From: Stachybotrys elegans | Lineage: Eukaryota; Ascomycota; Sordariomycetes; Hypocreales; Stachybotryaceae | Direction: 5' to 3' | Assembly: GCA_020746835.1 (NCBI GenBank) | Contig: JAGPNK010000021.1 | Location: 352,417 to 416,416, forward strand | DNA length: 64,000 bases | Shown: positions 17,411-64,000 of the stretch, piece by piece | Numbering within the stretch: position 1 is the first letter of the stretch | How the letters are laid out: each line of letters starts with the position of its first letter | Notes under the pieces: model-generated | Database searches by the model: none | What the model was told of the DNA's origin: nothing | What the model saw: only the letters and a program-made list of their open reading frames with translations | Position numbers and translations under genes: made by a program

Positions 17411-20400
17411 TCAGACATCTGAATTGGTTTTATACAAGACCCCCCTCTCGCCCATCTGTGCCCTGACGACCGAATACTGGCCCTGCTCCTCTGGGTCTCG
17501 CTCAATGAGATAGCGGCTATGGGTAATCACTACAATCCAATCCGCCACCGTCTGCGACAAGATCCCACACAGTCTGACCACCGCCGCCTGCCCTGCCTCG
17601 TCAAGGCTGTCGAAAACCTCGTCCACCAGGAGGTACCGCGCGCGATGAGCGCTCCGGGCCCAAGACAGCTGCAGCAGAGCAAAGAAGAGTGCGAGATCGA
17701 CGCGCTTGCGCTCGCCACCTGAGCGCTTCCCGTATGCTAGGGAGTGGTGCACGGCAAGACTTCCGTCGAGCACAGCCCCGGAGCTGGCTTCGTCGTTGGT
17801 CATGGACTCGTCAATGGATTCCGTCTCGAAGAGGGAGCGAAGCATTCCTGCAGCTACGACGCGCGTATGGCGCGTATCGTCGTACAGGGCCGTGAGAACC
17901 TGCGCGAGCAGCGTATTCAGTTCCGACAGCGACTTGCCCAAGACGAGGTCGTGGAAACTTGCCGATGCCCTAGCCGTGGATTTGGCCGAAGACGAGACAC
18001 GGCGGGTGCGCCTCGCCATCGAAGAGGACCAGAAAGCAAAAAGCTCGCGGTCTGTAGCGATCTCTTCTATTTTCCTAGTCAGGGCATCTTGCTCCAGGCG
18101 TAGAGAAGCGAGAGAGGACTGCTCCGTTGTGATGAGGTGCCTGTACGTGTCCACGTCGCGTTGTTTGAGGCTGACTTGCTGCTGCAAAGCCTCGCAGGCG
18201 CTCTGTGCCTGGATGAGCTGGGCGAACTGCTCTTTGATCGCAGCTGAGCGGTCCATGGCAGACTGTTCTTGGGCGATCATTACATCAGTCTCCTTCTCCA
18301 GATTCCGGAGCCGTAGGGCGCTTTTCTCGAGATCTTGTCGAGCGACATGGATATTTATTGTCTCCTGATTGGGCTGGAATTCCACTCGCCGAAAGCTGCG
18401 TTTTAGCATGCCATATACCCGCATGAGTCCTCCGAACGCCGCTGCTTGGAAGCGGATAGTGATGAGCTTCACAGCATGGAAAAGTCCGGTAGCACGAGCA
18501 TCCGCCAAGCGTTTCAGTTTTTCATCCAGTGCCAGCCGAGCCTGAGCTAGCCAAATCGCTTCTCCTGCTGGCTTCTCCTGCAACCGGCTCACAAACTCTC
18601 CTAGTCGTCGTAAATTCTCCTCCTCAATGTAAACCCGGTTCTGAAGGGTCACAAGATCAGAACGAACATCGATGGCGGACTGAGACCCCTCATGCAAGCC
18701 ATGGGGCTCCTGACATCTTTGCCCCGTGCACGTCTGGCTTTCTTCAGTGTCAGATTCTTGGACGATCTTAGATTCGAGGACCTTGCGCTCTTCAACGGCT
18801 GTTTCCAAGGACAAAACAGCCTCCTGGGACTCGGACTCAAATCGGTTCTGGGCCTGAGCAAGATCCTCAAGCTTCCCTTCCATATATTTGATAGTGCCCA
18901 GTAAACCATTCAGTTGACTATTGAGTCGCTCCACGTCATTGTCAACATGTTTGAGCAAAAGCCTCGAAACCTGTGCACACTGGTCAAGGATTGATAACCC
19001 GAGCGACGCCCCGATCAGATCGCGCCGCTGCGCCACTGACATGCTCAAGAAGCTGACTGCACTCTCGTGTCCCAGAACAACAGTCCTGACGTAGGTTTCA
19101 TAGTCTGTTCCGAGCAGCTCATTGATGGCTGCCTGGGTTGTTCGTGCATCGGGATGTTCAAGTTGCAACTGTGGCTCTCCATGCAGCGAAACTATGACCC
19201 GGTTCCCTTCGACTTTGTGCTTGCGATAGCGCGTGATGGAGTAGCCGTTGGCAAACTCTAGCACGACGGAGCAGTTTTTGCCCTCGTTATCATTGATAAC
19301 ATCGTTGGCTGCAAGCCCTGCACGTAGGCTGCGTCCAAACTGGCACCAAACCATCGCCTCAACAAGAGTGCTCTTGCCAGAGCCATTGTCGCCAACCAGG
19401 AAGGTCAGTCCACGTGGGACATCTTGGTGGAAGTCCAAGGTGATGGTTCCCTGCACGCCGAGAAAGTTGGTGATGGTGAGCTTCCGTGGCTCTGCGACGA
19501 AGATGTGAGTTTCCGATTTGGCGAGCTCAGCAGTGGAGCCTGTGCCGACAGGGCGATATGACTTGTCGAGAAAGTCTTTGTGGTTGATTTCGCCGTCAGT
19601 GTCCTGATCGGTCCTATGGTGTGAGGCTTGGATGACTCGCTGACCGATTCGTATCAGCTCGTCTCGTCGAGACACCAGGGACTCGTCAAGATCTAGCGAG
19701 TCCACGTACTCCTGAACCGCTGATATCAGATCGAGTTTCTTGGGCTGCGGTTCGGGGCCAGAATCATTCTGGGTTTCCGAGGCCAGCGCGACGTCCTTTG
19801 TTGTCTCTACGGCTGCCTCATCTTGTTTGGGTTCCTGCAGTGGTTGAATGGCAGCGTCACTTGCAGGGACCGATGCACCAAACCCTCTGAAGATTCCTTT
19901 GTCGGCGTTGAGAGCCAATCCTATCGGGGTCCAGTTACGCACACTTCGAACACCGAGTGAAAGAAGTTTGTCGCGAGCCGTCACATACTTGTACCGAGTT
20001 AGGTCTCCTAGGAGCATGACATGCTTATCCATTACGGCACTTTGGTCGACTTGGCCATCGAGGACTTGCTGCAGATTGGCCGTGGTGTAGCCCACTCCAT
20101 GGGGGTTGATGAGCATTTCGTGCTCGAGTGTCTCTGGATTCAACAGGAGAACTCCCCGTTGTTCATCGTACAGATCAGCCCAACTCAATTGTAAAGGAGA
20201 GCCGAGATAAGTAACGCCCCCCATAGCTGAAGAAACGGCATGTCCCAGGTTTGGCTGAAGAAGGGTTTGGTGAGCGTGAAAGTGCCCCGTAAAAGTCCGA
20301 GCCAGCGGAGAAAAACGGTCTGCACCCGTGAAGCCACGGTGCGTGATGGAGTTGGCCACGGGAGGCTTGTCAGGGTCAGCAGAGACGACATGCCGCTGTG

Positions 20401-20905
20401 TTATTGCTTTGTTGATTGCAAGGTGAGCAAAGGCAACCGTCTCGCGTGCCTCGGCAGGATCCAGGGCAGCGACAGCACTGATCAGCTCGTCCTGCTCCTC
20501 GCGGAAGGGCAACAGCAAGACGCGTCGACCATCCCACTCGTGGCTGGCGACGCGACTATGGACCGAGATGAATGGATCCAGGCGGCCCACTTTGAGGGCC
20601 TCCAATGCCGTCGTCTCATAATCGCGGCGGTAGGCGAGGTCATGGTTGCCGAGGACGATGTGGACGCGTGGCACGACATCGCTGAGGAGGCTGACGAAGC
20701 GGTAGCAGGCGGAGAGGACATGCGTCGGCTGCATGGTACGGCTCGTCAGCAGGTCGCCGCAAATGATGACGCGCTCGACCTTGTTCCGTGACGCCTGTCC
20801 GACGATCCATTGCGCTGTCTTGCGCACCCGGTCAAGATCATGGTGTTTGAAGTGAAGGTCGCTGAGGAGCAGCCATCGCACGGAGCCGGCCCCAAGCCTT
20901 TGCAT
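17411..20905 (-). CDS. SbcD/Mre11-type nuclease fused to an SbcC/Rad50-type ATPase, single polypeptide
   Basis: One uninterrupted 1164-codon frame. Residues 1-330 form a calcineurin-like metallophosphoesterase of SbcD/Mre11 type with every metal motif: SDLH (15-18), CGDLL (49-53), GNHD (86-89), His161 and GHFH (207-210). A low-complexity acidic linker (345-390) leads to an SMC/Rad50-type ATPase: Walker A GDNGSGKST (505-513), coiled coil about 645-955, ABC signature SGGERKR (1062-1068), Walker B YLLVDE (1091-1096), D-loop SLDE and H-loop Thr-His (1128-1129). In bacteria SbcD and SbcC are separate subunits of an ATP-dependent end-processing nuclease; eukaryotic Mre11 and Rad50 are also separate. 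The coil is much shorter than in SbcC or Rad50. At its turn is CTGQRC (726-731) rather than the zinc-hook CxxC. The usual Q-loop Gln seems to be His613. Lack of introns contrasts with most neighbours. Likely role: DNA end repair; compartment unknown, no presequence seen. Confidence 0.9.
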   Translation of the reverse strand: MQRLGAGSVRWLLLSDLHFKHHDLDRVRKTAQWIVGQASRNKVERVIICGDLLTSRTMQPTHVLSACYRFVSLLSDVVPRVHIVLGNHDLAYRRDYETTALEALKVGRLDPFISVHSRVASHEWDGRRVLLLPFREEQDELISAVAALDPAEARETVAFAHLAINKAITQRHVVSADPDKPPVANSITHRGFTGADRFSPLARTFTGHFHAHQTLLQPNLGHAVSSAMGGVTYLGSPLQLSWADLYDEQRGVLLLNPETLEHEMLINPHGVGYTTANLQQVLDGQVDQSAVMDKHVMLLGDLTRYKYVTARDKLLSLGVRSVRNWTPIGLALNADKGIFRGFGASVPASDAAIQPLQEPKQDEAAVETTKDVALASETQNDSGPEPQPKKLDLISAVQEYVDSLDLDESLVSRRDELIRIGQRVIQASHHRTDQDTDGEINHKDFLDKSYRPVGTGSTAELAKSETHIFVAEPRKLTITNFLGVQGTITLDFHQDVPRGLTFLVGDNGSGKSTLVEAMVWCQFGRSLRAGLAANDVINDNEGKNCSVVLEFANGYSITRYRKHKVEGNRVIVSLHGEPQLQLEHPDARTTQAAINELLGTDYETYVRTVVLGHESAVSFLSMSVAQRRDLIGASLGLSILDQCAQVSRLLLKHVDNDVERLNSQLNGLLGTIKYMEGKLEDLAQAQNRFESESQEAVLSLETAVEERKVLESKIVQESDTEESQTCTGQRCQEPHGLHEGSQSAIDVRSDLVTLQNRVYIEEENLRRLGEFVSRLQEKPAGEAIWLAQARLALDEKLKRLADARATGLFHAVKLITIRFQAAAFGGLMRVYGMLKRSFRRVEFQPNQETINIHVARQDLEKSALRLRNLEKETDVMIAQEQSAMDRSAAIKEQFAQLIQAQSACEALQQQVSLKQRDVDTYRHLITTEQSSLASLRLEQDALTRKIEEIATDRELFAFWSSSMARRTRRVSSSAKSTARASASFHDLVLGKSLSELNTLLAQVLTALYDDTRHTRVVAAGMLRSLFETESIDESMTNDEASSGAVLDGSLAVHHSLAYGKRSGGERKRVDLALFFALLQLSWARSAHRARYLLVDEVFDSLDEAGQAAVVRLCGILSQTVADWIVVITHSRYLIERDPEEQGQYSVVRAQMGERGVLYKTNSDV

Positions 20906-22896: not shown

Positions 22897-22968
22897 TGGA
22901 GATAGAGGGACTTGAACCCCCGACCTATTGCATGCAAAGCAAGCGCGCTACCACTGCGCCATATCCCC
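22897..22968 (-). tRNA. tRNA-Ala (anticodon UGC)
   Basis: A 72-nt cloverleaf folds on the minus strand. The acceptor stem GGGGATA/TATCTCC has one G-U pair. The D stem is GCGC/GCGC. The anticodon loop TTTGCAT carries TGC. The T arm is GGGGG-TTCAAGT-CCCTC, which includes the B box. The discriminator base is A. There is no intron. The first anticodon-stem pair (27-43) is a C-U mismatch; the other four pair normally. Confidence 0.93.
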
Positions 22969-51099: not shown

Positions 51100-53391
51100 C
51101 TAGATAATAGTGAGCAGCTCCAACTCTGTATCCTTCTCCTTCATAGCCTCGCCATCCATAATACCATGAATATAGGCATCAGCAACCAACTTGAAGGGGT
51201 TGCCTGGATTTTCAGCTTCCTCTAGACTCGGCTCAGGACGCAGGATGATAGGGGCTCGCGAGCCTGGGAGGATATATATAAGATCCCCATTCGCCATATT
51301 ATCCCTAGCCATCCCTAAATACCCTCTTTTCGTCACAAATAGTCGTCGCCGGTAACATCTATCTGTCAGCCGGCCGAAGGTGTTCTGCTCATTGCCAGAA
51401 GCATCAGCCGCAGGGAGCCATGAAGGGTATTCTTGACTAGCAGGTAGTTCATCTGTGGGCTGGCTGTTATTGTCTTCCGCGTTAGTACCTTTCCCGATCC
51501 TATGCATTCTACCTATGTACTCTGCCAACTGAGCAATGGTTTGATTTGTGGCTCGTTGATTGCTGTGTTCCCCAGTGCGGTGATCTTTTAAGAGTGTTCG
51601 CCACCATGCGTTGCCCCAGGTTCCGCCCCCAACATAGTGTTCACCTGGGGAGCGGGCTTGGACTCGACTGAAATCATAAGAAATTGCGAGTTCTTTTCTT
51701 TCCTTGACATGCGGAAGGTCGATACTATAGGCCACGAAACAGTCCATCTGGTCGTTGCGTATTGGTCGCGACACCTTTTCCACTATATCAAACTGTACCC
51801 CTTCGACCTGCAACGCTGCTCCGCGAAAGTGCGCTCGGCATGTCGTGTTATTGTCCGCAGAAAAGGCTCGTAGCTGCTTGTACCAACTAACATATATCGA
51901 TTGACATCTGAAGTATATGTCAGGCCACACAGTCCAATCAATAGCCCATGAAGGCATGTGCATAGAACTGCCTGTGACGATGCAGTCCTTGTCGGGGCGT
52001 GGCTCTGCACAATCGCCCTCAGGTTCGTTTGGGTCTTCAGGAGGGTACCCAGCAAATGATAGAGGCAATAGTTGTCCTGTGTGCAGGATGAAGTCTGCGC
52101 ATGCGTCTGCGAATACAACGCCAACCTTTTCATCATAGTTTGGGACGACGGAGTTTCGACCAGCAAGGCCCAACAACGCATAAATGCGATCACGGGGGTC
52201 CTTTGATACGCGATACATGTGTTGAAGGCCCAATTCGATTATGGAAAGTCGCTTCTTTTCCAGGTGGCGAAGGTCACCCACCTGACCAATCTGGTCCAGC
52301 ATTAAGCCGAATGATATTCTTATATTGCCGCGGGCGGTGACCGTTTCGATGTCCACGTAGTGTCTCGGCATGGTTTGCCATGGAATTTCCCGTTGCAGAT
52401 CTGACCTCATCTGGGCCACAAAGTGCTCTCGGGCCTGCATAAACACCTGAATAGGGACAGTCACGGATCCAAAGAAGAAGTGAGCATCTGGAGCGACTGC
52501 TGCCTCTTGCACAACCCAGAGCCTTCTGAACCAGGAATCTAGTGACAAGGGATAGAGAACATTCGCCACTAGTTTGGAATACAACTTGTGTTTCCAGAGG
52601 TTGGGCAGGAAAAGGGGAACCTCGTTCCAGTCATTTCCATCAGCGATCAGCCTGACTGACCACGCAACATGAAGACACCAAGCGTACGGGAAGCTTCCAA
52701 CGTTCAACGAGGTAGCAGAAAGCAGGTCTCGATCTTCTCCAGGAAATTCCAAGGTTTGGAGTAAGTCTTCCCAGTTCGATCCATAGTCTCGGCTATCACC
52801 CGTAAACAACCAAGACTTGTTATGCAGGTCCAATCCTCTCTCTGCCTCTGCTTCTGCTTCTAATTCCTCTGATTCCGAACGAGATATATCAGGGAAATCC
52901 CAGGGCCCATTTTGAAGACAGATCAGGCATCTGAGACACCTTGAATAGATCTGTCCCATAATGGTCACCTGGTGGTTCCGCTCAGCCACGTCGCTTTGGT
53001 TGATGCAAAGCGCATCGACCCAGAGAGTGAAAGGCTTGTAACCCTGCAGGGGGAACAGACGCATGATAATAGCATGCAGGTTCAATCCCACTTCGATGGG
53101 GAACCCATCGACTAGGACTGGCGTTGGAGACATGACACCTGGCCTGCCCCAAGCATACGACAGCGCGTTGTAGGCGGGCGGATTTTGCAGGTTGGCGACC
53201 GTCATTTCAGCTATGATTGGCTGATTCTGATCGCCCGAGGGGAACAGCTTCAACAGGCGGATCTCAAGGCTGTTGGGCTTCAGGGGATATCTTTCGTATA
53301 GTTGAGATGTATTAAGTCTGTCCTCTGTTGTTGAGGGATCTGAGGCCTCGTCTGATAACATTGTAGTAATTTTGAGTGTTGATGGTTTCAA
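51100..53391 (-). CDS. HET-domain (heterokaryon incompatibility) protein
   Basis: Member of the large fungal HET-domain family; characterised members trigger cell death on fusion of unlike individuals, though most are uncharacterised. Intronless, 763 aa (or 753 from a Met at codon 11). The HET domain starts at about residue 74 with YNALSYAWG, followed by LNLHAIIMRL, LWVDALCINQSDVAERNHQV (124-141 region) and MGQIYSRCLRCLICL. A long middle part follows, including SLDSWFRRLWVVQEAAVAPD, and DPRDRIYALLGLA typical of the family. The C-terminus RLFVTKRGYLGMA and DLIYILPGSRAPIILRP is the common HET-protein end. No NACHT, WD or ankyrin part is seen. It is the last gene before the A+T-rich block. Confidence 0.92.
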   Translation of the reverse strand: MKPSTLKITTMLSDEASDPSTTEDRLNTSQLYERYPLKPNSLEIRLLKLFPSGDQNQPIIAEMTVANLQNPPAYNALSYAWGRPGVMSPTPVLVDGFPIEVGLNLHAIIMRLFPLQGYKPFTLWVDALCINQSDVAERNHQVTIMGQIYSRCLRCLICLQNGPWDFPDISRSESEELEAEAEAERGLDLHNKSWLFTGDSRDYGSNWEDLLQTLEFPGEDRDLLSATSLNVGSFPYAWCLHVAWSVRLIADGNDWNEVPLFLPNLWKHKLYSKLVANVLYPLSLDSWFRRLWVVQEAAVAPDAHFFFGSVTVPIQVFMQAREHFVAQMRSDLQREIPWQTMPRHYVDIETVTARGNIRISFGLMLDQIGQVGDLRHLEKKRLSIIELGLQHMYRVSKDPRDRIYALLGLAGRNSVVPNYDEKVGVVFADACADFILHTGQLLPLSFAGYPPEDPNEPEGDCAEPRPDKDCIVTGSSMHMPSWAIDWTVWPDIYFRCQSIYVSWYKQLRAFSADNNTTCRAHFRGAALQVEGVQFDIVEKVSRPIRNDQMDCFVAYSIDLPHVKERKELAISYDFSRVQARSPGEHYVGGGTWGNAWWRTLLKDHRTGEHSNQRATNQTIAQLAEYIGRMHRIGKGTNAEDNNSQPTDELPASQEYPSWLPAADASGNEQNTFGRLTDRCYRRRLFVTKRGYLGMARDNMANGDLIYILPGSRAPIILRPEPSLEEAENPGNPFKLVADAYIHGIMDGEAMKEKDTELELLTII

Positions 53392-53929
53392 AATGGCCCG
53401 GGCTAGCGTTCAGGCTCCCCTGTATTTCACAAGATGGGGTGCTTGGTACGATGGGGTAGTCTTTTCGTTACGGGTCTGTTATGGCTGCACGGCATGGAGA
53501 CTGAAACCGCGTAGTTCCTATATGCTCTTGAGCGTGAATAGCAATGGACCATAGATGACTAGGTACTTGCAATTCTAAAGTAGCAGTCCCACGCAATGCT
53601 AATTGTAACGTGGCATCTTGAGTACGGACAATGGCACAATGCGGCACAGGCACGACTCGGTAGTTTTCTACAAATGGATATGACCAGATAAGCAAACTAC
53701 AGGATAAGTGGTACACATTAATGCCTCAGTAGCAGGCAAAAATTATTGCCAGGCACAGCCTGCCACAGAAAATGCGCAGCACTAAAGTACATCAAATTCC
53801 ATTAAACTAGAAATATATGTAGGCCTATGACCCCGCCGTGTAAAGATTTCAAAACAATGAAATGGCACGCAAGATCCCACATGGCTGCGGCAAGTGCTGT
53901 TCTGCCATTAAGGCCCTAATCTTAAGTTT
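53392..53929. other. Transition to A+T-rich block
   Basis: 5' flank of the HET gene. Composition is normal to about 53.9 kb and then changes abruptly. Confidence 0.55.
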
Positions 53930-54160
53930 AGGATAATCTTTTAGAATAATAATCTACTATAACTTTTATTCTATAAATTTATTAAATATACTATTAAGCT
54001 CTATTAAATATAAAAAAAAAAGAAAAGGTCTTACTACCTTTAACTAGCTATATAAAGCTACTATTATAAAGTTACTTTTATTAAGCTATTACTAAAGTAT
54101 ATATAATAACCTTTTAGAACTCTATCTATAATAATATCTTAATATAAAGTAATAGTAATA

Positions 54161-54194
54161 ATATTATTACTACTATTAATAGTAGTAGTATTAT
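54161..54194. repeat. Imperfect inverted repeat, about 34 bp
   Basis: Centred on ATTAAT: the left arm with TTACTACTATT pairs with the right arm AATAGTAGTAG, with one G-T and one mismatch. It lies in simple TA/TAG-rich sequence, so it may be chance. Confidence 0.5.
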
Positions 54195-54274
54195 CTTTAC
54201 TACTACTATTAATTTCTTTACTATTATTAATAATTTTTTTAATTATTTTAATAATATATATAAAATTACTCTCT

Positions 54275-54640
54275 CCTGAGCATAAGGTTTAAAAGGCTTG
54301 CACTGTTTTTTTCACTGTCTTTTCTAGCTTACCCTGGACCCATTCCTACACACCGTTGCTGACTAAGCAGGTTCCCCGCATCACGTGACCAGCGCCCAGC
54401 TTCCCCCACGGCTCCTTCGCATTACATGCTTCTTTATAGCTTTCTTTATAGCTTAGCGCATAGCTTCCGCATACAACTATAGCTTCTGACGCATTGTATA
54501 CTTCTGCACACGACTATAGCTTCTAATACATTGCTTGTCTATTTTACATTACAGGGGCATTAGGCATATAATTTAGTAAGAAGGCAGTAAGAGCAATTAA
54601 TTCAAAAACCAACCTAAAAAACCGACTAAAAACCCTAATT
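54275..54640. other. Normal-composition island inside the A+T-rich block
   Basis: About 300 bp with usual base composition and several CG dinucleotides (including a CACGTGACC segment), flanked on both sides by the mutated block. No reading frame of note. It includes the tandem 37-bp repeat. Confidence 0.6.
54464..54537 (+). repeat. Two tandem 37-bp imperfect repeats
   Basis: Unit 1 is 54464-54500 and unit 2 is 54501-54537. They share CTTC-GCA-AC-ACTATAGCTTCT and CATTG segments. Most differences are C/T or G/A transitions, as RIP would produce between copies. Confidence 0.7.
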
Positions 54641-57600
54641 GAAAAACCAAGCCAATTCCATTAAGGCTTCTAAAGCAAGCTATATATCTCTATTCATGCT
54701 AGGGCCCTATAGCTAGTATTTGCTATTGCTCTTAATATATTCTAACTCTATCTCTAGCTTTCTCTCTAGCTTCTTACCCCTTCCTTTATTTCTTTTTCTA
54801 AGCTTTAGATATAATTTCTCTTTAGAATTGCTATATATTAAGGGTATATAAAAGTCATTTTATTACTATTAGTAATATTACTATTAGACTGCTTAAAAAG
54901 ACTTACCTTAATGATAATATTATTAGGGATGTAAATAGAGGCAGTAGCTAGGGCTGCTATAGCTACTTATATAGCTATTAAAATAAGGGAAAACGCAATA
55001 CTATCTATAAAACAGTTAGTAATATAAATAGTAGCTTATAGTTAGACTAAACTAACTAATCTAAAAGCTAGTATATTATATAATTTTAGAAAAGTTATAT
55101 AAAAGAGAGAAAAGTATAGTATTTTTAGATTTTTAAAACTAATCTATTTATATAAATTTAAGTAGCCTAGCTAGAACTCTCTATAGTAACTTAGGCTAAA
55201 TTTTCCTATTTTAATTATTTTTAAAAGTAAATTTATATCTTTATTAAAAAGTCTATTTTAATTTAAAAATAGAAAGGCAAGCTATTTATACTATATATAT
55301 TAAGTCTATTTAATTTTATTTTTAGCTTCTTTTACTATTTATTTTATATTTATTTTTAAACTTTTTATTTTTAGTAACTTAAGCTCTAGTCTTTTATTTT
55401 ACTAGCTTTTTATTTATATTCTTAACTATAACTAGAGTTTAATTTAATCTTAAGTAAGTTACCTTTTAGTATAATATTAATCTAAATAAAGAGACTTTAT
55501 TAAGGGCTAGGCCTTTAAGTTTATAAAATAGTTTTAGGGTTTTAAAAGGCTAAAAACTAATTAATTTAGTATTTTTAAGTATAGTAGTATAGTTTTAGAC
55601 AGTATAGTATTTAGTATAAAATTAGCTAGCTATAACTTTAGGTTTTTAAATATTATATATATAGATCTTCTATTAAACTAAGAGTATAATAAGCTTATTT
55701 AGAATTAAACTTCTTTTAGTTTTAAAGATTAAAAACTACTAAACTAGTTTTTAGCTTTTAAGTCTAAATCTTTCTTTTATAAAAACTATTATAGCTTTTT
55801 CTTTTACTTTAAGATATAGATTTATTTTTAAATTAATAGAGCTAGTATTTTTTATAAAATAAACTTATATTTTAAAAATAGTACTATAGTAGGGAATTAA
55901 TATAGCTTTATATTTTCTAGTATTTAGAAAGATTTTAAAAACTTAAAGAATCTCTTATAAAAGTTTTTAAATTACTATAGCTTTAAGTAATAGTAAGTAA
56001 AGAGTTTATAATATATTTTTTAGTATATTTAGCTTTAATTTAGCTAGAGATATAGAGAATACTTTATTAGGGTTAGGGATTTTATCTCTTAAAACTATAG
56101 CCCTAAAGATTTTAACTATAACTATATTAATAGCTATAAAAGCTAAACTAAATATACTATAGTTAGGGGCTAAAATAGATACATCTATCTTAATATTTAT
56201 AACTAGATTATATAGTTTTAGAGATTTAGTTATTTCTATATTAGTCTACCTTTTCTTTTTTTATTATAGAAAGGCCTTAAAAACCTCTAAAGTTTAAGTA
56301 AAGAGAGAAACTAAATAAAATACTATAGATTCTAAATACTAAATAGTTTTTTAATTTAATATAGTATTCTATTTAATTAAATACTAAATCTCTAAATACT
56401 ATTCTTTCTTTAGGTTATAGATATTATTTATAAAGGCCTACTAGTTACTAAAGAATATAAAGTTTCTCTTAAAGACTACTTTATATTTATAAATTATTTA
56501 GACTTTTTAAAAATAAAAAAATAACTAGCTTTAGTATATAAGGTAATTTAAGTCCTTTTAGTTTAGTTTATTATTTATAAAGCTATATAGTATCTATATT
56601 ATAAACTTAAAGGCTATATTATAGTTAGCTTATATTTAATAGACTTTTTTAAAAGCTTAATTCTAAAAGTAAAGAGTATTCCTTAGTATTTTAATAAACT
56701 AATTAGTTAATTTTAATATTTACTAAACCTTATTATAATACTTCTAGCTCTAGACTTATACTTTAAAAGGCTAAGTACTAACTATTTCTCTAAAGATTAA
56801 AAAGATCTAGAAAATAACTAAATAATTATATCTAAAGTTATTAAATTATCTAGTAGCTAGAATAGTAATAAATAAGTATTTTCTAAAGAATTTAAAAAGA
56901 ATTAAATATTAAGTCTAGATATTTATTAAAAAGGTAATTCTTTAGTTTAAATATATAAATAGAATATTAAAGTAATAGAAAATATTATAAACTCTATTTT
57001 AAATAAAGCTAGTTTAATAGTTTTTAGAAAAGAACTTTCTATTTTAGATTATTTTTTAATTAATAACTCTATAGTAGAATTTTTATCTATAGGTCTAGCT
57101 ATAATAGCTTTTTTTTATAAAGCTACTATATAATATAACTTAAACCTATAGATAATTATATAAATATTTAAGTATAGTATTAGAGTTAAGTAGAATAGTA
57201 CTATTACTATTAAATTAAAAAAAATAGTATTAGTAGAAAAGGCAATTAAATAGTTAAGATTATAGTATATAATTCTAAGTAAGGCTTAAATCTTAAAGTT
57301 TAAAAGCTAGTCTTTAATAGTAGCTTTAATTAAAAAGCTTATTAAATTTAAGTAATAACTATACTAGTTTTTAATATTAGAAAAGGCTATAGTTTTATTA
57401 AAAATAGCTTACTAAACTTCCTTAGTCTTATTAATAGCTTTTTCTAGCTTAAGGTATAATAAATATATTTAGTAAATAGATTATAGAATAGTAATAAATA
57501 TAGGGATCTAAATATTAAGTTAATTAGTAAGCTCTTTATTCCTTATATAGTATAAAGCATTAGAGCTATAGCTAGAGATTTACTTAATTCTTAGTAATAA

Positions 57601-60600
57601 AATATTATACTTAATAATAGATATAATATTATAATATAAAAAGAATAAATTAGCCTTCTATATAAGGATATAAATCTAGCTTATATAGAAGCTATATAAG
57701 GCTATAATTAAATAGTTTATTAGTTTCTTTTATTAAATAGATATATATAGGCTATATTATAGTAAAAAGAGAAAAAGGTTTATATAGTAAAATGCCTAGA
57801 AAGAATAAAAAGAATAGCTTATATTATAGTAATATTATAGCCTTTAATAGACTTAAATAGTAATATAAAGGACTTAAAGAAGGTAAAGATAGAGCTTAAA
57901 GAGGTATATATATATATAAATAAGAATAAAAGAGAGAGAGAGAAATATATAGAAAAAAAGCTTAAAAAGTATACTTAAATAGATTATATAGCTAGTAGCC
58001 AGTATATATAAATTACTATAGTCTAGATATACTCTATATATTACTTATTTAATTACTTAACCATTTCCTAGTCTCTCTTTGCCTTCTCTTTTCTTTTTAA
58101 ATCTTTTTCTCTTTATCTTTCTTTCTTATAGTTTTCTTTTAGCCTTAGCCCTCTTTCTAGCTTTATTTATATCTTTATAGCTTTACTGATTAGTTCTTTT
58201 ATTATAGATCCTTCTAGTCTTAGCTATATAGCCCTTTTTAATATTTTAAACTTTACTATATATAAAGTAAAGAAATCTAACTTTTTATAAGCCTTTAGTT
58301 TTAATTAATATAGTTACTTAGCTACTATAATAGGCTTTTAAGCTTAGTTAGTTTATAAAATATAGCTTATATATTAGACTATTTAATTTAATTAACCTTA
58401 ATATAGCTAACTATCTCTTAAGTCTTTTATATCTTTAAGATTTAAGTAGTTAGTAATATTAATATTAAAATATAAGATATTTCTATTTACTATAAAATAG
58501 CTATTTATAATAGCTTTAAAAATACTTTTATTTTTTAAATCTTTAGCTTTAAGTCTTTTAATATTTCTATACTTTTTAAGCTCTTTTTTAAAGAGTTCTT
58601 TAAGTTTAAGTATACTTTTAAATTTATTTAAAATATATCTATCTATTTAATATATATTTCTTTAAAGCTAAGCTCTTTTAATAAATAATTCTAGTATACT
58701 TTTATTACTAAGCCTAAGTATATAAAGGCTTTTTTTATCTCTTAATATAACTCTTTAAATCTCTATATATATAGCTATTATACTAATACTCTTATATATA
58801 CTATTTCTTTTATTTAGAAGTATTTTTTCTATTCTTTTCTAAAGTATATTTTTTATTTTTCTTTTAGTAACTATATTTATATTAACTATATTTAAAAGGC
58901 TATAGCTAGTATTTATAAATATTAAGCTTTTTTAAAGTATTTAATAGATTAGACTATTAAGTTTAATTAAAATATTTCTTTCTTTAGCTATAATATTCCT
59001 AGAGTTTAGTTTACTATTTAATACTAGCTTTATTCTTTTTAAAAGCTTTTAAACTATATACTAACTTTTTAAATTATTTAGCTTTTAGTAATCTTTAATT
59101 TTAACTTTAACTATCTTTTTAAAAAAGTAATAGCTTAATATAAAGTTTATTTTTTTTTTAAATATTCTTTCTAGGCCTTTCTTTAATTATTTTACTATTT
59201 ATTAAAAGTACTGCCTTTTTTATACTATTTTTAGTTTTATTAATTAGCTTAATATTAAATTAAATAATCCTTTCTATATTTATAAAGCTAGATATATTTA
59301 ATTAAAAGTATAAAATCCTTTAATATACTTAGAGTTTATAGTCTACTTTATTAATTACTAACTCTTTCTATTTATTTACTCTAGAGTCTATCTTTCTATT
59401 AGACAATATTAGCCTTATATTCTTTATATTTAAAGCTTAATTATTTAAGAATAAAAAACTAATTATCTTTCTAAATGCCTCTTAATTTCTTTATTAACCC
59501 TCTTTATATAAAAGTAAACCTAAGGCCTAATTAGTTTATTTCTATAAATTAATTATTATATAGTTTATAAAAGTTTATTATTAGTTCTATTTAATTAACT
59601 ATTATTTATTAATTTTTAATAAATATACTTAGTTTTATTTAAATATAAATATTTTAATATAGAAAATTATAATAGTAATAATTTATTATTAGTAATAGCT
59701 TTTTAGTCTTAGTTTATCTAGATTAGTTAATTTTCTTTTCTAAATTAAATTTAAAAAGCTAAGCTACTATTTTATAGTTTATATCTTTCTTAAAGTTATA
59801 GTCTCTATAGATTCTAGCTATTCTTATTAATAAGAATCTATTATTAATTTAATACTACTATATATATAATTTAAATATTATTATTATATTTTAATATCTA
59901 TAGATATTTAGCTTAATAAAAGAGTACTATTAATTATTTATTTAAATAGAGATTAATATATAGATATTTATAAAATAGAATAATAGTAAATATATCTCTA
60001 ATATTAATAGTTACTATTTATAATATATAAAGAATTTAAAAACCCTTTTTAATAGAAATAAGTATTTTTTAAAAGCTAATTTTAAAGGTAGTATATTAAA
60101 GTAAAATATAGTTAATTACTAGTTAGTAATTTAGTAGTTTAAAGAGTTATTAAAATAAATTAAAGTACTAAATATACTAAATTAGAATATATAGATAATA
60201 AAGAGAAAAATAAATAGAGAATAAAGTATTAAGTTATATTACTATACTTATTTTTAGCTAGAAGTATATTATAGTATAAAAGGCAAGTTTTAAAAAAAAA
60301 AGAAATCTCTTTATAAAGGGTTTTTATAGTAGTAATAGTTATACTTCTTACTCTTTTATACTAAAGAAAAATACTTACTATCTTTAGTATAGTTTAGTTA
60401 CTTTAGAATTAAATAATTTTAGTAAACTATAAATATATATTCTAATAGAATTCTTTCTATTAGATTATTAGTATTAATAGTTAAATCTTAATATTATATT
60501 TATATTTAGGGCTTCTTTAAATAGATTAAGCTTTATTATAGTTTAGATTATTATTATAGTTACTATTATTTAAACTATTTAATCTACTTATACTTAGAAT

Positions 60601-63600
60601 ATTTCTTTAAGCTAGAGCTATAAAGGCCTAAATATTCTCTAGTATATATTCTTAGCTATTATTAATTATATCCATCTTTATCCTTTATAAAAGCCTTTAA
60701 TCTATCTTTATAAAAGGTTTCTTTAATAGGCATTCTATTTAGGTTTATAAGCTTATATAAGCTAACTATCTATACTTAGCTCTAAATATAGTATAGTCTA
60801 TTCTATCTCTAAGCTATTTTTATAATAGTAAATAAATTATTTACTCTTTTAATATTATAGACTAAAACTAAATTATTTAGTTTTAATAGTACTTTTTTAA
60901 TCTTTACTAAATTATAATTATTTATTTAGCTAGCTATTCTTTTCTAGAATTTAGTAACTTTATTTCTTATATACTATATATTACTTTTCTTTTTTTCTAG
61001 AATTTAAATTCTAGCTTTAAGAAATACTTTTTATAATATTACCTTATTTTAGTTAATTAAATACTATATAAAATACTTAATTTCTAATAGATAGATTAGC
61101 TTTTATCTATATATTAAGTAAAATAGAGACTAATTATAAAATAACTATAGAGAGATTCTATTTATAAATATAGTTAAACTTAACTATTTAATTTAGTTAG
61201 TCTTTACTTAAGCTAGCTTAATAATAGTTATAATAAGTAACTAATACCTAGCCTTTATAATATTATTAACTTTAAAGTTATAAGCTAAAATAGTAATAAT
61301 CTATATACTAATCTATTTTAAAACCTTAAAAAGGTTTTTTTAAATTCTAATTCTTTATTAATAACTATTATAATAATTATTCTATAATAAAAGATTAGTT
61401 ATTTTATAAAGATAGTTATTAATTTAGCTAAAATCTTTTATACTAGTATTACCTCTATCTATTTAGTAAAGTTATAATATACTTTATAAAGAAACTTAAA
61501 CCTAAAGTAAAATAGTATATATTATATATTAAAATAAACCTTTATTATAAATAGCTCTAGTTTAGTTAATATTACTTTTTCTATAGGTCTCTATAATATA
61601 AATTTCTAGTATTCTAGATATATTTTTAAAAACTAATATAGATCTTTATATATAGATTTCTAGTAATATTAGGTTTATAAACCTTTAAAAATAGTAATAA
61701 AGTAATAGTATTTAAGTTAGTAATATATTATAACTATTAAATCTCTTTAAATAGCTAGATTATTTATAATTAACTTAAGGTTTCTATTAGATTTTAAGGT
61801 TTTTTTAAAAAGCTATTTATTTCTAAAAATATATTATTTAGTATTTATTTTTAGTTTTTAAAAACTAGCTCTATTTAATTTCTTTTAGTTTTCTTAAAGT
61901 CTTTAAATACTATACTATAGCTTTAGATTTCTAAAAGTATTTATTTTCTAAAATATTATTAATTAAGAGTATATTAAGTTTCTAATTAATAAAGTTTTTA
62001 ATATTCCCTTTAATAATCTAATTATAAGTATTTAAAGAAATAAATAGCTTTTTAAATAAACTATTTACTATTCTATTTTTCTTTCTAAATATATACTATA
62101 TTATAAAGTTAAAGAGTAAATATAGTTAATCTATTTAATAATTAAAACTATTAGAATATTCTTATATATACTATTAATCTAGCTAATTAAAACTTAAATA
62201 TTTATTTTAATATAAACTAAACTTTATAAAAAAAGTTTTATATTTATTTAAATATATATAGTATAGCTTTATACTTTCTTTTAGTAGTATTATATTTTAT
62301 TTCTAAAACTAGCTATATATTATTTTTAAATCTAACTAAATATCTTTTTTCTTTTAGAATTTATATTAAATAAATACTTTATTTCTTTAATAAAGTATTT
62401 ACTATTAAAATAATCTTACTATAGTCTTTTTTAAAGTCTAAAGTAACTAAAATAGGTATTATTATTATTATCTTTTTAAGAATATTTATTATAGCTTATT
62501 AAGCCTTACCTTATATTTATTTAAACTCTTTTTTTAAAAGATTTATTAATAGTTTAGCTATTAGTATAAAGCCTTTAATCTAAATATAGTAAAACCTAAC
62601 TAATTTAATAAAAGACTAAATATTCTTTAAGTAGTAGTATTTAAGCTATTTTAGAATCTTTATAATCTTAGCCTTATTTAGCTTTTATCTATAGATTTTA
62701 TAAAAAAGCTAATAATAATTATAGATTTTTAGTAAAACTTTAATTTAAGCCTAAAGATTATATAACTAAATAGTTTAATATTAATAAATACTTTATTTAA
62801 GTTAATTAAATATTTTAATATAAAATAGCAAACTCTAGGTATTTCTTTAATATTATTATATATTAAAGTTAGTCTCTTTATTAAAATATTATTTAAAAAG
62901 GGTTTATAAATCTTTAGTATTAAATTAAATAGTATTTTACTTACTATTTATTAAAACTAAATTACTAAGTTTATAGTCTTTTAAAGCAAGATAGTATATA
63001 ATAATAGTTTAATAAATATATTAAATATTATTATATTTTACTTTTAGTAGCTAATAGAATCTAGTTATATTTTAAAAAAAGTCTACTATTAATAAAATAG
63101 TATATATTATAAAGTCTTAGCTAAATTCTTTTACTTTAAATACTATATTTATATTTTTAATTATTATTTTATTATAGTATATTATTAAATTAATTAATTA
63201 AAGTTTTTTATTTTTCTTTTAAACTAAAAACTAAGGATTTTTATAGAGTTTATAGTTTTTTTTTAATAAACCTTAGTTTATTTTCTATTTAAAAAAATTA
63301 ATAGCTTTAAACCTTAGTATAGCTAAGATTAATATAAAGCTAGATTATTAAGTATTATAGAGAATTATCTTAATAATCTAAAGTAATATTACTTTAAGAT
63401 TAAGTTTTCTATATTCTAAGAATTTCTATATAATAGTAGTTTCTCTATTTAGGAAAATCTAAATAAAAATACTTTTTTTCTATAATTATAATATAATTAT
63501 TTATTAAAATCTAATTCTATTTAGTTTAATTTAATTAAAAACCTTTCTTTAAATTAAGAATCTTAAAGTAATATACTTATAGTATAGTATATTTTTCTAG

Positions 63601-64000
63601 AGTAAGTTTTATATTTTAGTTTACTTTCTCTCTTTCTATCTAGGGTTTCTTTAGGTATTAACTTATTTAATAAAGTATTATTTATTAAATTAATCTTTTA
63701 ACTTTTAGATTTATATATAATATTAATCTAAATAAATAACTTATTATTACTAGATTAATAAAGTATTTCTCTAGGTAATTTATTTAACTTTAACTTTTTA
63801 TATAGCTTTCTTTTTATTACTATTACTCTCTTTCTTTTATCTTTCTTTAGTTCTTTAAAAGCTTTTTATAAATATTAAAGATAATTAGCTTAATAATTAC
63901 TTTAGCTACTTTATTATTAATATTTAAAATAATTCTTTTATTAAAACTTAAGTTAAATACTATTAATTATCTTTTCTTTTTTATTCTCTTTACCTTTATT

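Follow-up and report, generated by a model that had tools for sequence, protein, structure and literature searches.

A probable single-chain Mre11/Rad50-type nuclease of Sordariomycete fungi, apparently without a zinc hook and possibly of viral descent

A 64,000-nucleotide stretch of the fungus Stachybotrys elegans (contig JAGPNK010000021.1 of assembly GCA_020746835.1, positions 352,417 to 416,416; hereafter the window) contains a gene in which an SbcD/Mre11-type nuclease is fused to an SbcC/Rad50-type ATPase. We propose that its product is probably an old, maintained, single-chain enzyme of the Mre11/Rad50 type, acting as an accessory ATP-driven nuclease on DNA ends and hairpins and possibly of viral descent. 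The gene lies at window positions 17411 to 20905 on the minus strand, and its identification as a whole SbcD-SbcC fusion of 1164 residues rests on its frame, motifs and homologs. A single frame opens with the ATG at 20905 and runs through 1164 codons and a stop, with no internal stop codon and no intron required. An earlier, sequence-only reading of the window had described one uninterrupted frame with both halves and had listed nuclease and ATPase motifs, and the translation bears out both statements: SDLH (residues 15-18), GDLL (50-53), GNHD (86-89) and GHFH (207-210) are the SbcD/Mre11 motifs, and GDNGSGKST (505-513), SGGERKR (1062-1068) and YLLVDE (1091-1096) are those of the ATPase. Pfam recognizes Metallophos at residues 12-165 (5.9e-7), AAA_23 at 475-688 (1e-15) and SMC_N at 475-1136 (1.5e-14), while SbcC_Walker_B falls slightly under its cut-off (26.9 bits vs 27).

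The predicted structure matches SbcD and the heads of Rad50/SMC proteins, and its capping domain, linker and helical segment follow one another as they should. The nuclease and capping domains cover residues 9-326 (positions 19928 to 20881, on the minus strand like all parts of the gene), the nuclease having its first strand from residue 11 on, and are followed by a disordered linker at residues 326-388 (19742 to 19930; predicted local distance difference test, pLDDT, < 50). A helical segment at residues 393-430 (19616 to 19729; predicted helices 393-403, 408-411 and 414-430) stands in the place of the Mre11 helix-loop-helix that binds the Rad50 coil and, judged by its order and position in the model, would be its equivalent. 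The ATPase N-lobe, supported by Pfam and the predicted structure, spans residues 470-637 (18995 to 19498) and holds Walker A (19367 to 19393); the C-lobe, taken from the predicted structure, spans residues 984-1164 (17414 to 17956) and holds the ABC signature (17702 to 17722) and Walker B (17618 to 17635). Between the lobes lies a short coiled coil with a tip that has no CxxC (residues 638-963; 18017 to 18994), and in the place of the hook the model puts, with low confidence, a helical tip (helices 740-776, 785-802 and 808-834; 18404 to 18688). The Trichoderma homolog P0024 has the same predicted tip topology, which is not independent, as the alignments overlap. A transmembrane tip was considered and dropped, since hydropathy reaches at least 1.6 in just 10 of 93 family rows, and a basic cluster of lysine and arginine occupies the loop at the arm-head junction in 63 of 91.

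The family has kept its catalytic residues. The conserved metal ligands of Mre11/SbcD and the capping domain are present, as are Walker A, the signature, Walker B, the D-loop and the H-loop of canonical Rad50. Fourteen sites were compared in 93 aligned rows; 79 rows have all of them covered, and 73 of the 79 agree with the window protein throughout. Conservation is complete at K511 (93/93), S1062 (91/91), D1095 (92/92), D51 (83/83) and H88 (90/90) and nearly so at N87 (87/90); the second glycine of the signature is glycine in 46 and serine in 41 of 91 rows. Several sites, catalytic or ATPase residues, are lost in Fusarium sambucinum P0108 and F. poae P0104, which look like decaying paralogs, and one tested site is changed in each of P0091, P0094, P0095, P0097 and P0107. 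With the catalytic residues nearly fixed across the family, the enzyme is maintained, with occasional decay.

What the family does not have is the zinc hook, a point that the sequence-only reading overlooked. Over the stretch that aligns with residues 641-950, just 1 of 93 fungal rows shows a CxxC, where cysteine content would predict 2.3. Counted more loosely, anywhere between the ATPase lobes, the motif is present in 4 of 119 proteins of the set P0001-P0121; these are P0054-P0057, three of them named Trichoderma, in which it may be a regained hook or chance. The non-fungal SbcC-type frames used for comparison come from loci of viruses, phages, plasmids, bacteria and Asgard archaea. Of the 69 that are distinct by string, 68 have CxxC in the coil (2.3 expected), as do 57 of 58 clusters formed at 90% identity and 40 of 41 formed at 50%; the clustering omitted 17 of the 106 loci (9 without a Walker A pattern and 8 with fewer than 100 residues of coil). 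The lone exception, L070, is a viral SbcC frame from about 4005 on the plus strand in which intein-like sequence stands directly after the P-loop NGAGK; an intein probably sits inside its Walker A motif. Both hook cysteines are invariant in ten aligned viral SbcCs, and CxxC is held by both of the viral fused frames examined, L080 and L095. The tip of the fungal family is poorly conserved. From this distribution we take the zinc hook to have been lost in the fungal family, a trait that is apparently a new observation.

At E <= 0.001 the protein has 252 matches among the roughly 5.8 billion proteins searched, and the best 120 were examined; P0002, one of these, is a shorter gene model of the window protein itself. 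Among these best 120 of 252, at least 90% of the query is aligned by 103 and both halves are matched by all 120, which rules out chance as the source of the frame. The half-profiles were built from the fungal family itself, so that membership is circular; still, no lone SbcC appears among the listed homologs. Identity to the window protein is 43-63% across the 92 homologs in the family alignment. The 84 of the 120 that carry an organism name all come from what we take to be Sordariomycetes (Conoideocrella, Sporothrix and Apiospora were looked up, and the class of the others is our assumption). Shorter matches extend the family to Xylaria, Apiospora, Sporothrix and Magnaporthiopsis, and among the matches listed several orders of the class are represented. 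One entry, P0191 on a contig of 5 kb, bears the name of a Dothideomycete, Lasiodiplodia mahajangana, and is either a mislabel or a genuine outlier. Two gene models are unusual in composition: P0184 of Dactylonectria estremocensis has a Helitron_like_N domain at residues 706-840, after the ATPase N-lobe and where the coiled coil is expected, either because a Helitron has inserted there or because the model is chimeric, and P0070 of Colletotrichum karsti joins the fusion to a HET gene.

Within the fungi, the gene tree does not follow the orders, which we presume for its rows, the species names being those of the protein records. When 29 rows selected from 108 are put on a tree, the approximately unbiased (AU) test rejects monophyly of ten Sordariales sequences (p 0.00035), of seven Fusarium sequences (p 8.8e-5) and of fourteen Hypocreales sequences with the window left out (p 6e-10), and ten Sordariales rows form a clade with five Fusarium rows at a support of 100/99. 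These tests were run after a 63-row tree, which agrees, had been seen. Either transfer between orders or an old duplication with loss would account for the conflict.

In S. elegans itself the fusion protein finds only its own gene (E <= 0.001, 4 candidates scored). Canonical Mre11 is encoded on contig C45 (PF04152, 1.9e-46) and canonical Rad50, with the hook CLLC, on contig C56, just as the sequence-only reading had expected, and with both present the fusion is an extra enzyme. Searching the genome with AAA_23 gave 12 matches in all, the stronger of which were examined; of these, the two on C60 and C23 look, from their frames, Smc5- and Smc6-like.

Fusions of this kind have been known since 2011, when thirteen Mre11/Rad50 fusions outside the canonical clades were described (Yoshida, Claverie and Ogata 2011, PMC3175470). 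Their carriers are Mimivirus (R555), Bacillus phage 0305phi8-36, moss, algae (a diatom and Micromonas), slime moulds and bacteria, with a Clostridium kluyveri plasmid and a Deferribacter megaplasmid among them, and spread by viruses, plasmids or transposons was proposed. The earlier view that the two proteins are normally separate subunits, to which the fungal gene would be an exception, is thus right about the single chain in a fungus, but such chains were already on record in eukaryotes, viruses, a phage and plasmids (PMC3175470). The S. elegans protein resembles these MRFP/SbcDC fusions in having an N-terminal Mre11 nuclease followed by the Rad50 ATPase in one chain, in the region of capping and helix-loop-helix length and the linker found in most of them, and in the retention of the canonical pair, as in most host cells according to the same text (PMC3175470). 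The viral fusions L080 and L095, which are not from that paper, differ from the fungal family in keeping CxxC. The words fungi, fungus, zinc and hook are absent from the main text of PMC3175470, and in their accessible text a DNA-repair review on filamentous pathogens (PMC9779921) and the T. reesei genome paper (PMC5496416) mention only ordinary Rad50 and Mre11. We found no description of a fungal Mre11/Rad50 fusion in the open-licence literature; the fungal branch, though not the kind of fusion, is apparently undescribed.

To assess the origin of the family, we compared both halves with phage, bacterial and host proteins. The fungal N-lobe profile scores phage and plasmid SbcCs at up to 90.9 bits, compared with 20.2 for the host's own Rad50 and -1.2 for E. 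coli SbcC; the corresponding values are 51.7, 0.4 and 8.3 for the C-lobe, and the nuclease profile gives up to 83.2 bits for phage SbcDs, 19.4 for E. coli SbcD and -2.4 for the host's own Mre11 (the Rad50 and Mre11 rows were crudely pieced across introns for this scoring). The fusion is therefore far from the fungus's own pair by profile scores. The top-scoring SbcCs belong to Herelleviridae, a plasmid, huge phages and T4-like phages, and the best library fit is 181 bits in PHROG vs 71 in NCBIfam and 59 in Pfam. Phage-type SbcD and SbcC (T4-like gp47/gp46, Herelleviridae, huge phages) show the best similarity to both halves and share with the fusion a short coiled coil and, usually, the order with the nuclease first, but they are separate genes and keep the zinc hook. 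Canonical MRX/MRN shares fold and catalytic residues, but consists of two chains, has a coil with a zinc hook (CLLC in the host's Rad50) and is of very low similarity; E. coli SbcCD also differs by its two chains and its weak profile scores.

In the ATPase tree (47 of 49 rows, the Cetobacterium SbcC and the viral fused L080 having been dropped) the fungal clade groups with virus-type proteins at a support of 95/91, in a clade that includes one plasmid row and one Anaerolineae row. The nuclease tree (49 rows, among them the Anaerolineae row L097, which was wrongly cut and fills 37% of the columns) likewise places the fungal clade with virus-type proteins, with unstarred support of 90/85 and 84/94, and there the two viral fused frames make a separate clade. 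In each tree the stem of the fungal family measures about 1.9 changes per site. Of 69 viral loci that have nuclease and ATPase, 58 place the nuclease gene first, 8 place it second and 3 have the two in one frame; 15 of the 58 nuclease-first pairs have overlapping open frames, from which a fusion might readily arise. No close donor appeared for either half: a search for unfused relatives gave, for the nuclease, 33 family pieces (50-76% identity) followed by 11 unnamed proteins at 23-28%, and for the ATPase, among the 7995 candidates sharing most words, 52 family members followed by 15 proteins at 22-36%. The idea of a fused copy among collected phages and plasmids was dropped: the fusion matches 2734 phage records and 912 plasmid records, no match extends over 80% of it, and the viral fused L095 as query finds no plasmid match.

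Several observations weigh against a phage-type origin. Asgard N-lobes reach 47-63 bits and one Asgard C-lobe 26 on the fungal profiles; some viral SbcDs score low (Aeromonas phage 31 14.9 bits, Herelleviridae 21.4 bits); and the scores are skewed towards viruses, because most viral rows were found by their similarity to the fungal family. In addition, the AU test on the ATPase rejects neither a union of the fungal family with the host's own Rad50 (p 0.225), nor one with E. coli SbcC (p 0.142), nor one with Rad50 and Asgard proteins (p 0.057). The first of these values is what speaks for an assembly of both halves from the fungus's own Mre11 and Rad50, which we nevertheless consider highly improbable: the corresponding union with Mre11 is rejected (p 0.033), the crudely pieced host rows have the very low scores given above, and the trees position both halves elsewhere. 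In trees of each half, a check proposed in the sequence-only reading, both halves are placed outside the ordinary Mre11 and Rad50 clades, a placement that is tentative in view of the AU values.

The origin that we favour, still unproven, is that a virus-type pair of SbcD and SbcC genes became fused. Of the foreign acquisition that had been proposed for the gene, this is the part that survives; a recent acquisition does not, because the family is spread over several orders, its stem is long and the GC content at third codon positions (GC3) is near that of host genes. Indeed, at 0.63, GC3 is only a little below the 0.67-0.72 of neighbouring and repair genes and gives no sign of recent foreign origin. 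Recent bacterial transfer was dropped, with 0 relatives in 52 stretches, at least 5 in 592 with phage-type SbcC, and host-like GC3. Among viral proteins the fold is matched best by a Listeria phage entry of 1009 residues and by several long entries from giant viruses, with identities of 11-16%; with such values, a related Listeria phage that carries nuclease and ATPase as separate genes, and viral fusions in a clade of their own, an origin from giant viruses as such was also dropped.

The window has 89 open reading frames (ORFs) of at least 130 residues, 20 of which were scanned; 16 match ordinary families (amine oxidase, DUF829, HAM1-like, thioesterases, esterase, rhodopsin-like, SDR, saccharopine dehydrogenase, AhpC, Zn2Cys6, GMC oxidoreductase and HET) and 4 match none, and on this basis the gene was dropped as a candidate for mobile-element cargo. 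A tRNA-Ala (TGC) gene lies about 2 kb away (22897 to 22968, minus strand) and the HET-domain gene about 30 kb away (51100 to 53409). In the last stretch of the contig, from 54000 to 64000, GC drops to 14-24%, having been about 50%; AT-rich blocks of this type are produced by repeat-induced point mutation (RIP) or occur at centromeres. The triplet TTAGGG repeat that a telomere would have occurs nowhere in the window.

By analogy with SbcCD (mechanism in PMC6265447), two copies of the fusion would pair through their nuclease domains and through ATPase heads closing on ATP, and ATP-driven movement of the heads would let the manganese-type nuclease site cut ends, hairpins and protein-blocked ends. 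The residues for this are in place and the fold is predicted; dimerisation and cutting are what we infer from them. Because the zinc hook, a constitutive Rad50 dimerisation module that an SMC hinge can replace (PMC6969161, in the text available), is gone, end tethering is disfavoured as a role. The first strand at residue 11 leaves little room for an N-terminal targeting peptide, and together with the basic junction-loop cluster, which could serve nuclear import, this points to the nucleus as the site of action. There the enzyme may have an accessory role besides MRX, on hairpins, palindromes and foreign or extrachromosomal DNA.

A rather unlikely alternative is a genome-defence nuclease, the fungal counterpart of the SMC-type systems against plasmids and phages, which would cut incoming, extrachromosomal and transposing DNA. 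The conflict between gene tree and fungal orders is as expected of a moving or turned-over gene, and the Dactylonectria paralog with its Helitron domain, the Colletotrichum model joined to a HET gene and the HET gene in the window would fit, although the HET association may be chance; against it, no defence partner occurs among the 20 scanned ORFs, and in PADLOC the protein is matched best by mad3, an ATPase (1.2e-21). Membership in a known anti-phage family was dropped, as the matches are confined to the ATPase part. A back-up or specialised copy of MRX, for general double-strand-break repair or meiosis, would share fold and catalytic residues and coexist with canonical Mre11 and Rad50, as the fusion does; we think it quite unlikely given the great distance from the canonical proteins in profile scores and the absence of the hook, which is reported to bridge Rad50 arms (PMC6969161, same text). 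The organelle role raised in the sequence-only reading, here mitochondrial DNA maintenance, finds some encouragement in the longer N-termini of 2 of 17 aligned gene models (P0084 and P0113), but is very unlikely where the nuclease has its first strand at residue 11 and 15 of the 17 rows begin within about 10 residues of the window's ATG. That two genes or an assembly join were read as one is scarcely credible: one-half gene models of the fusion do exist in databases for some other fungi, but all of the best 120 of 252 homologs match the profiles of both halves.

The single-chain accessory nuclease that we prefer can be placed in a fuller history, offered tentatively and, taken as a whole, rather unlikely: a viral-type pair would have been fused and domesticated once in early Sordariomycetes, would have lost the hook and gained a helical tip, and would have become a nuclear nuclease without hook bridging, probably one that protects against DNA of foreign or mobile origin, and would itself have moved between orders. 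For the Mre11/Rad50 enzymes, a family in which the catalytic residues are kept and the hook is gone offers a natural experiment on what purpose the hook serves, and an enzyme encoded by one gene, with its 1:1 stoichiometry fixed, is useful for structural work. For the fungi, it would represent an accessory end nuclease, on which we found no study in the open-licence literature, in the genetically tractable Trichoderma, Podospora and Fusarium.

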